Assembly (NCBI RefSeq): GCF_029027405.1
Contig: NZ_CP093396.1
Location: 434,001 to 498,000 of the forward strand
DNA: 64,000 nt
Direction of reading: 5' to 3'
DNA from: Sulfurimonas sp.
GTDB taxonomy: Bacteria > Campylobacterota > Campylobacteria > Campylobacterales > Sulfurimonadaceae
Shown piece by piece: positions 26,860-30,240 of the stretch. The notes under the pieces were generated by a model. That model had not been told where the DNA came from and did no database searches. It worked only from the letters and a program-made list of their open reading frames with translations. A program made the position numbers and the translations under genes. Position 1 is the first letter of the stretch, and each line of letters begins with the position of its first letter.

Positions 26860-26863
26860 AGTG

Positions 26864-26869
26864 TATAAT
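26864..26869 (+). promoter_or_regulatory. -10 box of alr, placing the start site at its ATG
   Basis: TATAAT followed by exactly 6 nt and the ATG at 26876. Transcription would begin at or next to the start codon, so the mRNA may be leaderless. There is no Shine-Dalgarno before the ATG, which agrees. Confidence 0.5.
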
Positions 26870-26875
26870 TCCTTT

Positions 26876-27877
26876 ATGGCTTACATAACTTTAAATAAAA
26901 ATAATTTTTTTAATAACCTTGATATTATCACAAATCATGCTAAAAGCAAAGATAAAGTAGCGATAGTTTTAAAAGACAACGCTTACGGACATGGACTTCT
27001 TGAAATAGCATCTATGGCTAAAGAATATGGCATAAAAAAAGCAGTTGTTCGCTCTGAAATAGAAGCAAAAAAAATAGAGAAGTTTTTTGAATATATTTTA
27101 GTTTTAGCGGATTATCCATCAGAAGTAAATGATAAAATAAGATATACAATTAACGATATAAATTCAATTGGGAAGTTTACAAAAGGAACTAAAGTAGAGC
27201 TAAAAGTTGATTCAGGGATGCATAGAAATGGCATAGATAAAAGTGAATTAAAACTAGCATTTTTAAAAATAAAAAAAGCAGGGCTTAATTTAGAAGCTGT
27301 TTTTTCGCATCATAGAAGTGCTGATGAGTTAACAAGTGAATGGTTTTGGCAAAACTCTAATTTTAAAAAGATTAAAGCCGAGGCAAAAAAGTTAGCTAAA
27401 GAATTTGGTTTTAACTCACTTAGATTTCATTCAGCAAACTCGGCATCTCTACTTAGAACTTTAGATTTTAATGAAGATATGGCAAGGGTTGGCATCGCTG
27501 TTTATGGTTGTCTAGATGCTAATGAAGAATTATTACCTGTTCTTTGTTTGTACGCAGATAAAATATCTTCAAGAGATGTCAAAAAAGGTCAAAAAGTCGG
27601 CTATGGAGCAACTAAGATAATTGAAAAAGATTGTACCGTTTCAAACTATAACTTTGGTTATGCTGATGGATTTTTTAGAACACTCTCAAACAACTTTACA
27701 ACTCCAGATGCAAAAGAGTTAGTTGGAAGAATATCTATGGATAATAGTTCATTTATTAGTGAAGATGAAAAACTTTTAATTTTTAATGATGCACGAGTTG
27801 TTGCTCCATTGGTAGGAACTATATCTTATGAAATATTAACATCTTTAAAAGCAGATTTAAAAAGAGAGATAACTTAA
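26876..27877 (+). CDS. alr: Alanine racemase
   Basis: 333 residues from the ATG at 26876; a GTG at 26861 would add five residues but overlaps the -10 box. PLP-dependent interconversion of L- and D-alanine for peptidoglycan. The PLP lysine lies in VLKDNAYGHG, the substrate loop in VDSGMHRNGI, and the second catalytic tyrosine in VGYGATKI. The stop codon is the first three bases of a 25-bp direct repeat that duplicates the end of the nlpC/p60 gene 1.85 kb away. Confidence 0.92.
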   Translation: MAYITLNKNNFFNNLDIITNHAKSKDKVAIVLKDNAYGHGLLEIASMAKEYGIKKAVVRSEIEAKKIEKFFEYILVLADYPSEVNDKIRYTINDINSIGKFTKGTKVELKVDSGMHRNGIDKSELKLAFLKIKKAGLNLEAVFSHHRSADELTSEWFWQNSNFKKIKAEAKKLAKEFGFNSLRFHSANSASLLRTLDFNEDMARVGIAVYGCLDANEELLPVLCLYADKISSRDVKKGQKVGYGATKIIEKDCTVSNYNFGYADGFFRTLSNNFTTPDAKELVGRISMDNSSFISEDEKLLIFNDARVVAPLVGTISYEILTSLKADLKREIT

Positions 27878-27899
27878 GGTAAAATCCTGCTACTCTGCC
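27875..27899. repeat. Left 25-bp direct repeat of the 27.9-29.7 kb islet
   Basis: Starts with TAAGGTAAAATCCT and ends with TGCC; 23 of 25 bases match 29726-29750. Read on the minus strand it is a detached copy of the last codons of the NlpC/P60 gene (WQSSRILP then stop). It begins at the alr stop codon. Confidence 0.8.
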
Positions 27900-27910
27900 T
27901 TGTTAGCAGT

Positions 27911-28258
27911 TTATATTTCAATGTCTAGTACAATTTTAACTTGTTTATCTATCTCAAGTATCTCTTGATAAGTAAGTTTAGTAAGGAAACCTTCCAAGAT
28001 TCTTTGATTATCTAAAGCTCTTATTTGGTCACATAGGACATCACTTGTTTTATCTAACTTATCTCTTTTAGTAATTCTATATCTTAAAGGGTAAGCATTA
28101 TCTATTAAAACAGTTGAAATTGGTAAAATAATAGTTGTAGGGTGTTCACACTCATTTAAAATATTTGTTTGATAAATTAAAACAGGTCTTATTTTGCCAA
28201 CTTCATTCCCTTTTTTAGGGTTAAGTTTAGCTAGATATATTTCACCTTTTTGAAACAT
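27911..28258 (-). CDS. MazF/PemK-type endoribonuclease toxin
   Basis: 115 residues. The MazF fold is recognisable from KGEIYLAKLNPKKGNEVGKIRPVLIYQT, the TTIILPIS strand and LCDQIRALDNQRI. It would cut mRNA at short sequences when freed from its antitoxin. Its ATG overlaps the stop of the upstream antitoxin gene by one base (TAATG). It lies inside the repeat-flanked islet. Confidence 0.88.
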   Translation of the reverse strand: MFQKGEIYLAKLNPKKGNEVGKIRPVLIYQTNILNECEHPTTIILPISTVLIDNAYPLRYRITKRDKLDKTSDVLCDQIRALDNQRILEGFLTKLTYQEILEIDKQVKIVLDIEI

Positions 28259-28491
28259 TATAGACCATCATTTACAGTAGGTTCAAATTCCTGAGAGATT
28301 TTTAAACTCTCTTCTCTTACTTTAAAAGAAGCATTTTTTATTTGTTCTTTAAGTCTTTCTTTTTCTAAGGCATCTTTATAGTAAACAACTGCTTTTCTAA
28401 TTAAATCACTCTTCGTTGTATGTAAAGTCTTAACCATATCTTCTAATGTGTTATAGAATGTATCATCGGATTTTAAAGTAATTGTATGCAT
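28258..28491 (-). CDS. Ribbon-helix-helix antitoxin
   Basis: 77 residues. The N-terminal strand plus two helices (MHTITLKSDDTFYNTLEDMVKTLHTTKSDLIRKAVVYY, residues 1-38) fit a CopG/MetJ-type RHH DNA-binding domain; the rest is a charged tail suited to toxin binding. It precedes the MazF-like toxin and is coupled to it. A TATAAT (minus strand, 28516-28511) and AAGGATG Shine-Dalgarno precede the ATG. RHH pairs usually repress their own promoter. Confidence 0.82.
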   Translation of the reverse strand: MHTITLKSDDTFYNTLEDMVKTLHTTKSDLIRKAVVYYKDALEKERLKEQIKNASFKVREESLKISQEFEPTVNDGL

Positions 28492-28510
28492 AATTCATCC
28501 TTTTTCTCTT

Positions 28511-28516
28511 ATTATA
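28511..28516 (-). promoter_or_regulatory. -10 box of the RHH/MazF toxin-antitoxin operon
   Basis: TATAAT on the minus strand, 19 bp before the antitoxin ATG. Overlap with the autorepressor binding site would be expected, but no obvious operator repeat was found. Confidence 0.5.
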
Positions 28517-28541
28517 GAACAAATTATCTTAAAGTAATATT

Positions 28542-28691
28542 TTAGTAATACCGTAGTGCTAACGGTTGAGAACAAAAAAATGTTCCTTTATTAAGATTTT
28601 CTAAACATTGCTCAATTTCACTAGCTGGTTGATTACGACAGTTATATTCTGCCCCATATTGTCCACTCTGTTTTGTTATATCTTTTGTATT
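28542..28691 (-). pseudogene. Possible gene remnant, cysteine-containing C-terminal fragment
   Basis: A 49-codon open stretch without a start codon, closed by TAA, reads like real protein: GQYGAEYNCRNQPASEIEQ followed by CLENLNKGTFFCS. Two or three cysteines suggest an exported protein. It lies between the TA pair and the small exported protein gene in the islet, consistent with a decayed accessory gene. The family is not recognised. Confidence 0.35.
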
Positions 28692-28716
28692 TTACACCTT
28701 AAAAGTAGAGATTCGT

Positions 28717-29190
28717 TCATAAGGGTGGCAATTCATGTTCATCATTAGCAATTTTGATGGCTAATTTTTTATTTTCAATACTTATATTAATATGTTCCAT
28801 TAGTTTGTGAACAAGTACTTTTCTATTTTTAGAATTTTCTTTTTGTATTTTAATAGCTATTAAATCTTTACCTTGGCAAGTTTTCTTTAAAGCCTTCCAA
28901 GTGTTTATATTATCATTATTAATCACACTTGCTAATAATAAGGAAGCTTTCTTTTCATTTAAAGAAGCTAATGTTATTTTGTTTATTTTCATATCTGAAT
29001 CATGATTATCTTTGCTAATGTGCGATACTCTTTCTTGTTCTGTAGTTAAAGATTTCTTATATAAAAAAATAAATTTATTTATCTCTTTACGTATTTTATT
29101 AAATTTAGTCTGATTGCATTCAAGTGCAAATAAGTTTGTAGATATTAGTGCTATTATTAAGAGAGAGAGTGTTTTTATTTTTAAGTTCAT
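28717..29190 (-). CDS. Small exported protein of unknown function
   Basis: 157 residues from the ATG at 29190, chosen because AAGGAA lies 6 nt upstream and a signal peptide follows (MNLKIKTLSLLIIALISTNLFA). A longer frame to 29289 would run into the inverted repeat. After cleavage the protein has an N-terminal Cys (ECNQTKF), a mostly helical Lys/Glu/Asn-rich body and one more Cys (KKTCQGKD). It looks like DUF1311 or lysozyme-inhibitor-sized periplasmic proteins but no family can be named. It is inside the repeat-flanked islet. Confidence 0.6.
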   Translation of the reverse strand: MNLKIKTLSLLIIALISTNLFALECNQTKFNKIRKEINKFIFLYKKSLTTEQERVSHISKDNHDSDMKINKITLASLNEKKASLLLASVINNDNINTWKALKKTCQGKDLIAIKIQKENSKNRKVLVHKLMEHINISIENKKLAIKIANDEHELPPL

Positions 29191-29724
29191 ATATTTCCTT
29201 GTATTTTTATAAATAGGCTTATTAAAACTTCCAAATAATGTAGCCTTTTGGATATAACGGCAGGGGCTGAGCTCTAAACGAGCAACCAACCAATTGTAGT
29301 ATTCCGCTACGCTACATACAACAATTGGCAGGAACCCACACTAAGCCATCATCCAGAAATCCATAAGTGGATTTATGAAGTATGACTTACTGGAGCTCAG
29401 CCCCTGCCGTTGTACGTTTCCGTTCCGCGGGAACATACAACTACTTAATCAACAAACACTATAGCGAAAGTAGACTTAATATAGAAAAACAAAGGAACAC
29501 CTAGAGTGTTCTATTTAAAATCAAAGTTAATCAATTCTATGATAAATTGCCATATTTTTAAAGTTTGTTGATATTTTTTATTACTGAATTGTCAATTATT
29601 TGGACATTAGTGTAGATTGATTTATTAAATTTAAGAATTAAAGATATAGATATAGATTTGGATTTGATAAAGCGTATGTTTGGGATTCTAAATCGTTAAA
29701 AGAGAGATAGTTTAAAAGATGTCA
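29191..29724. other. Gene-poor accessory stretch of the islet
   Basis: Holds the attC-like inverted repeat (29252-29415), a GTTCC-GCG-GGAAC hairpin (29422-29434), and a GAACAC-CTAGA-GTGTTC hairpin (29495-29511). From about 29620 short open stretches on the plus strand (ending KAYVWDSKSLKER) look like decayed coding sequence. No intact gene seen. Confidence 0.5.
29252..29415. repeat. attC-like inverted repeat with 19-bp perfect arms
   Basis: Left arm 29256-29274 (AACGGCAGGGGCTGAGCTC) is perfectly complementary to 29393-29411. The outer heptamers ATATAAC and GTTGTAC each differ by one base from the integron core-site consensus RYYYAAC / GTTRRRY. The inside contains further stems, CCAATTGT/ACAATTGG and AAATCCA/TGGATTT. 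It is far more GC-rich than its surroundings. A chromosomal-integron attC, or a MITE-like element, are the main options. Confidence 0.5.
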
Positions 29725-30240
29725 CTAAGGTAAAATCCTTCTACTTTGCCAATATCTACTCTTCCAATACGGATTGCTCATACTAGAAATGCTAACTCCA
29801 TTTTTTTGTGAAGTATGCATAAACTTGCCTTTTTCTATAACTATACCAGCATGGCGTGAGTTATAGCCTGTTTTAAAAAAAACTAAATCTCCTTCTTTAG
29901 TGGTATTTTTACTAATAAGATAACCTTTTTTTACTTGATCTTTTGTGGTTCTAGGAAGTCTTATGCTAAAAGCATCTCTATATACTATTTGAATAAGAGA
30001 AGAACAGTCTAAGCCATTTTTATTAATTCCACCATATTTGTATGGCGTGTGGTACCACTTTTTATACTCATGATATAGAGCAGTTGTTATCCAGTTTTGT
30101 TTTTTAGGTTTGTATTTTGGTTGTTCTTTATTCTTTATAATTTTTGAGGAAGTTGCTGGCTGTGAGTGTTGTCTCAGTGTTCGTGAAGAGCATCCACTAA
30201 AAAGAAGAAGGATAGATGCTATGAGTAAAAGTCGTAGCAT
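29725..30240 (-). CDS. NlpC/P60 lipoprotein peptidase
   Basis: 171 residues. Lipobox LFSGC with lipidated C17 after a signal peptide; the NlpC/P60 domain (about 55-171) carries the catalytic Cys79 in GLDCSS, His130 in SRHAGIV and a third polar residue at H142. It would cleave D-gamma-glutamyl-meso-DAP bonds in peptidoglycan, from a membrane anchor. The last codons were used as, or duplicated at, the border of the adjacent islet. Only 1 bp separates it from the next gene upstream. Confidence 0.88.
   Translation of the reverse strand: MLRLLLIASILLLFSGCSSRTLRQHSQPATSSKIIKNKEQPKYKPKKQNWITTALYHEYKKWYHTPYKYGGINKNGLDCSSLIQIVYRDAFSIRLPRTTKDQVKKGYLISKNTTKEGDLVFFKTGYNSRHAGIVIEKGKFMHTSQKNGVSISSMSNPYWKSRYWQSRRILP
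29726..29750. repeat. Right 25-bp direct repeat of the islet (3' end of the nlpC/p60 gene)
   Basis: Matches 27875-27899 at 23 of 25 positions. Here it forms the intact last codons of the NlpC/P60 gene on the minus strand, so this is the original site and the left copy is the duplicate. Confidence 0.8.

Follow-up and report, generated by a model that had tools for sequence, protein, structure and literature searches.

A putative decayed integron fragment between the convergent alr and nlpC genes of a Sulfurimonas chromosome

In the 64,000-nucleotide stretch of Sulfurimonas sp. analysed here (assembly GCF_029027405.1, contig NZ_CP093396.1, positions 434,001 to 498,000; hereafter the window), two intact genes face each other tail to tail: alr, encoding an alanine racemase (26861–27877, plus strand; PF01168 and PF00842), and an nlpC/p60 lipoprotein gene (29725–30240, minus strand; PF00877, 1.4e-31). 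They are separated by an islet bounded by short direct repeats, which an earlier note on this DNA had read as a mobile element integrated site-specifically at the 3' end of nlpC. This islet is almost certainly a degraded fragment of a chromosomal integron that has lost its integrase gene, intI. On the minus strand and from the nlpC side, its parts follow in the order intI fragment, attI, a mini-cassette without open reading frame (ORF), an exported-protein cassette, an interrupted attC and a cassette encoding a ribbon-helix-helix (RHH)/MazF pair. Its attC sites comprise one intact, one interrupted and one truncated copy.

In five relatives (G025, which is Sulfurimonas sp. OB8, G031, G019, G013 and CG01_land), alr and nlpC are also convergent, with ends overlapping or nearly touching and no insert between them. 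The window segment is therefore an insertion, as the earlier note had supposed, and the empty tail-to-tail arrangement represents the ancestral state. The ends of both genes are preserved in the host. The convergent junction accepts different inserts in different species: an unrelated GGDEF/EAL-type gene (~654 aa) is found there in G007, G027 and AUK128 (L070, L072, L152), and a 430-bp insert resembling a small cytochrome c gene in NORP168 (L149). None of the three other inserts tested (G007, G027, NORP168) is flanked by direct repeats, and the repeat is therefore specific to the insert of the window.

Additional copies of the inverted-repeat element at 29253–29414 exist elsewhere in the host genome as well as in seven relatives, and a second repeat family (~160–190 nt) is located between the genes of the host arrays at 263–279 kb and 1.78 Mb. 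In relatives (G028, G014, G011, G027, G001, G005, G012 and others), one or the other family directly adjoins genuine intI genes, which are called by TIGR02249 with ~378–416 bits vs. a curated cut-off of 265. Both repeat families are attC sites. We then built an attC model from 29 short attC sites (~69 nt), all collected outside the window, whose consensus is NNNTAACAAAACAGAGTAGCC...GGCTATCTTCGACCG|TTANNN, with AAC and CGTT invariant. RNAalifold detected no common pairs in the attC alignment, probably because loop lengths differ, and the model was therefore kept sequence-only. Within the window, it gave only two matches (E 4e-4 and 0.65), which are the two halves of one attC, in order and on the minus strand; elsewhere on the host chromosome, six stretches yielded more than 20 sites. 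Six array and islet loci were also compared with Rfam, and no match reached the gathering threshold. As in a complete integron, the cassettes of the islet end in attC sites with an R''/L''/L'/R' hairpin and a G|TT point, two of these sites being broken.

The cassette nearest to attI is the ORF-less mini-cassette (29258–29440, minus strand), which contains a long attC hairpin with R'' GTACAAC at 29409–29415 and R' GTTATAT at 29252–29258. This hairpin folds far better than shuffled sequences (z -8.7); the attC-like repeat reported in the earlier note is therefore genuine, and it is the key to the locus. Members of the same mini-cassette family are present elsewhere in the host genome and, in relatives, adjoin intI; in G028, G014 and G077, they occupy the first position at attI. 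A promoter scan of the mini-cassette found nothing above chance. Compared with most other copies (L055, L056, L061-L064), the core of this family-2 mini-cassette (29253–29414 in the window) has the opposite orientation with respect to the short hairpin that flanks it, which looks like a flip at 22-nt inverted arms.

The next cassette carries a gene for a small exported protein with no known function (28717–29190, minus strand). It matched none of the Pfam and NCBIfam families, and a partial homologue with 64% identity is found next to an attC of the host's main array (L055:7736-7999). Between this gene and the RHH/MazF cassette lies the interrupted attC (28558–28680, minus strand), whose 5' half (28680–28656) and 3' half (28582–28558) are separated by a 73-nt gene fragment. 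The fragment encodes SGQYGAEYNCRNQPASEIEQCLENLNKGTFFCSQPLAL and shares 83% identity over 29 aa with G000:1775369-1775455, adjoining another attC array of the host. The decayed fragment that had been noted earlier at this place is thus real, with a related host copy near an attC array.

The last cassette (body at 27902–28562, minus strand) carries a mazF/pemK-type toxin gene (27911–28258, minus strand; PF02452, 8.5e-24), with homologues 88–93% identical in G018, G023, G026 and G019. It is overlapped by a gene for a 77-aa partner (28258–28491, minus strand) that is conserved beside mazF in relatives and is a probable antitoxin of RHH/CopG-like type. From the MazF/RHH pair proposed previously, the toxin is therefore confirmed by its Pfam match, while the partner shows weak CopG/RHH-like matches only. 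The cassette starts at CG|TTAGCA, and the same start and R'' are found in G026, where the pair forms an intact cassette flanked by two complete attC sites, and in G159, where the 5' attC is complete and the 3' attC is cut. The pair is accompanied by a broken attC in G018, G023 and G089 and by none in G019, G083, G137 and G165; this cassette therefore often turns into a fixed gene. In the islet, its own attC is truncated (27889–27908, minus strand): R'' TGCTAAC (27902–27908) and L'' CAGAGTAGC are followed by a break and by fusion to the nlpC tail.

On the nlpC side of the mini-cassette, positions 29441 to about 29583 (minus strand) correspond to an attI region by homology to attI and intI-upstream regions. 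The closest sequence is a relic of such a region at 1856 kb in the host itself (82% identity over 143 nt plus 85% over 46 nt), and 70–92% identity was found with the regions between the first cassette and intI in relatives. As expected of an integron, this attI lies beside intI sequence, namely a 93-nt fragment (29615–29707, plus strand) covering approximately residues 141–168, with 82% nucleotide identity to the intI of G070, the remainder of the gene being deleted. A 5-nt insertion shifts its frame, and the tblastn alignment gives LLNLRIKDID followed by FGFDKAYVWDSKSLKER. This alignment could be prolonged, across stops, to 29475, but the extension was dropped because that stretch matches the attI region at the DNA level. 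No intact intI was found in the host genome; the functional integrase of a complete integron is thus missing. A TIGR02249 search of the host returned Xer-like recombinases only, and a DNA search with the intI of a relative then revealed relics: an intI 3' end with attI, located next to the main array at 281.6-281.9 kb (G000:C1:281600-281950, L171), an attI piece at 1790.7 kb (G000:C1:1790740-1790920, L172) and an intI 5' end at 1856.2 kb (G000:C1:1856200-1856560, L174). At least four dead integron heads are therefore present in one chromosome, the three outside the window each retaining a different part.

We also examined the direct repeats at the ends of the islet. Positions 27875–27899 and 29726–29750 share 23 of 25 letters, whereas ungapped 25-mer matches between 120-base segments drawn at random from the window (~200 pairs) reached 19/25 at best. 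When up to three mismatches are allowed, this 25-bp pattern occurs exactly twice in the 2.83-Mb genome, each time at an islet end. The repeats described in the earlier note are thus real and form a genome-unique pair, although the 25 bp are probably only part of a longer, composite repeat of alr tail and nlpC tail. The duplicated segment would measure ~40 bp, probably with a microhomology bounding it on each side. The left copy (27860–27899) comprises the alr tail (KREIT*) and the nlpC-tail copy, the 25-bp part being 27875–27899. The right copy (29698–29750) comprises a probable alr tail (29698–29715, 16/18 match), 13 extra bases (AAGATGTCACTAA) and the nlpC tail (29726–29750). Within the window, only the alr tail itself and the right islet end match the alr-tail letters GAGATAnnTTAA with at least 16/18. 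The similarity at 29698–29715 was at first viewed as pure target duplication; an overlap with the intI homology was then found, and both contributions were retained.

The break points themselves fall within integron parts. On the minus strand, the left junction reads TGCTAACAAGGCAGAGTAGC|AGGATTTTACCTTAAGTTATC (in short form TAACAAGGCAGAGTAGC|AGGATTTTACC), with attC before the bar and the nlpC tail, then alr, after it. At this position, attC reads TGCTAACAAAACAGAGTATCC...GACCG|TTATG in G026, where it is intact, AAGGCAAAGT in G089 and CAGAGTAGCC in the consensus. The attC after mazF is thus cut inside the L'' box, after CAGAGTAGC, and not at G|TT. Both mismatches of the 25-bp repeat relative to the nlpC tail are letters of the attC consensus, and ~10 nt are therefore common to attC and the nlpC tail. 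A portion of the repeat therefore resembles attC/nlpC microhomology more than an att core. One of these letters is also present in NORP168 and CG01, whose nlpC tails show CTCTGCC; the assignment to attC is therefore likely but not certain, and an exclusive attC origin of the L'' letters in the left repeat became less convincing. At the right junction, on the plus strand, intI ...TTAAAAGAGAGA runs into TAGTTTAA (also written ...TTAAAAGA(N)AGA into GAGATAnnTTAA); here the intI genes of relatives mostly read AAAGATAGAACT or close to it, and alr reads AAAAGAGAGATAACTTAA. Both junctions are located at microhomologies of ~10 nt. Since the islet ends within the L'' box of attC on the left and within the intI fragment on the right, these junctions are unlikely to be the work of IntI or of another integrase; for IntI, this is because neither outer junction is at the G|TT point of a complete attC.

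Sequence comparison shows the integron identity of the islet, the order of its parts, its decay with loss of intI, the empty junctions and the positions of the break points. On this basis, the islet is very probably a decayed integron fragment captured between the convergent alr and nlpC genes, by a mechanism that we infer. The chances that this mechanism was microhomology-mediated capture approach even. A piece of integron DNA, possibly from another integron of the same genome or of a relative, would have arrived and been joined through microhomology at both ends, e.g. by template switching or by break repair with taken-up DNA. Copying or repair would have left the alr tail, proceeded on integron DNA from intI via attI to the cassettes and switched back to the nlpC tail at its CAGAGTAG-like stretch, with ~40 bp (nlpC tail and alr tail) copied again. 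This re-copying would yield the direct repeats and keep both alr and nlpC intact, and the capture of taken-up DNA at a break would give an identical product. The islet is now probably unable to move by itself, and recombination of its cassettes would at most be possible with an IntI provided in trans.

Several points weigh against this reconstruction. The mechanism of arrival is deduced from just two junctions, and no close strain with an intermediate state was found. The 13 extra bases on the right are unexplained, and the alr-tail copy on that side is short and overlaps in part the intI homology. The nlpC tails of NORP168 and CG01 hold CTCTG, which makes the attC origin of one mismatch uncertain. 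Moreover, a ~40-bp tandem duplication could have existed before the insert was received, which would leave an identical pattern; this is one of the two main rivals to capture with re-copying.

The other main rival is a complete integron that once stood at the junction and was eroded from both sides, the repeats dating from the time of its insertion or stemming from a local duplication afterwards. The attI, cassettes and intI fragment do retain the normal order of an integron, and three other attI/intI relics indicate that erosion is common in this genome. Such erosion would however have had to halt exactly at both repeat copies, one of which, the copy of the nlpC tail next to alr, has no evident function that would have preserved it, and we consider this scenario rather improbable. 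The off-target insertion of cassettes by IntI in trans, at an attG-like G|TT site in the alr-nlpC junction, is among the proposed routes to headless cassette clusters (PMC8618304). The islet has attC cassettes, and the sequence AAG|TTATCT where alr ends could be an attG. This route is nevertheless very improbable: it is contradicted by the attI and intI fragment within the same repeats, the last attC is cut in the L'' box and not at the G|TT expected for attG, and a duplication of 25-40 bp is not expected. Equally remote is the site-specific island of the earlier note, with a 25-bp att core and a restored nlpC end: the 23/25 repeats do maintain this end and the site is empty in relatives, but no integrase gene was found in the insert (ORFs, Pfam and a tyrosine-recombinase scan of the genome), the element ends inside attC and intI and not at the att core copies, the 25-mer occurs nowhere else in the genome, and the other inserts tested at this junction are repeat-free. 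Among the tyrosine-recombinase matches listed, the nearest lies ~30 kb beyond the window (528 kb).

The other arrays of the host display further features. In two of them (L170 and L172, G000:C1:260001-280000 and 1775001-1795000), we found 12 copies, 98–100% identical, of an ORF-less attC-only mini-cassette of ~160 nt (family 1). Many directly follow a gene cassette's own attC ending in GTTATCCG, though the host has no intact intI. This mini-cassette has the appearance of a selfish cassette reduced to the minimum, or else of a spacer that was amplified recently, and related copies (~75–98% identical, some partial) occur in G001, G005, G011, G016, G027 and G030. The arrays at 271-279 kb and 1781-1789 kb (L055, L056) carry long gene cassettes with likely defence functions, as judged by eye from the sequence: a HerA-like and SIR2-like pair, Fic-type and DUF262-type products, a restriction-like protein and an IS3-type transposase pair.

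Clusters of attC sites lacking integron-integrases (CALINs), as well as integrase loss, are well described, and several routes to their origin have been proposed (PMC8618304; PMC12444791). The islet joins this known kind of genome relic: like CALINs, it has attC-bearing cassettes without a working intI, and the routes of intI loss and rearrangement fit it; its cassettes are also read in one direction away from attI. Unlike CALINs, it retains an attI and a scrap of intI, has only one intact attC and shows a short target duplication at a convergent junction; the short duplicated ends and the instructive junctions are what make it unusual. CALINs being defined by at least two attC sites without intI, the larger host arrays at 256-280 kb and 1.78 Mb belong to them. 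The sedentary chromosomal integrons of Sulfurimonas relatives (G005, G011, G026, G028 and others) share attI, attC families, mini-cassettes and RHH/MazF of the islet type. However, G005, G011 and G028 possess a full-length or nearly full-length intI with arrays, whereas the islet has a frameshifted fragment and three cassettes. Insertion through attG (PMC12444791) likewise places cassettes outside a working integron, but the islet includes attI and intI pieces and its ends are not the G|TT of a complete attC. It is possible, if tentatively so, that a CALIN can be founded by microhomology-mediated capture of attI, cassettes and a partial intI at a convergent junction, with no need for an integrase. 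Such a capture would leave a ~40-bp target duplication between the attC/target and intI/target microhomologies.

Finally, what seemed a mobile islet of unknown type becomes a readable integron fossil. It illustrates how small toxin-antitoxin cassettes can become fixed chromosomal genes, and its host, which has no fewer than four attI/intI relics as well as attC arrays that are nearly identical, is suited to the study of integron death. Its two junctions give an example of how headless cassette clusters might arise with no integrase involved.

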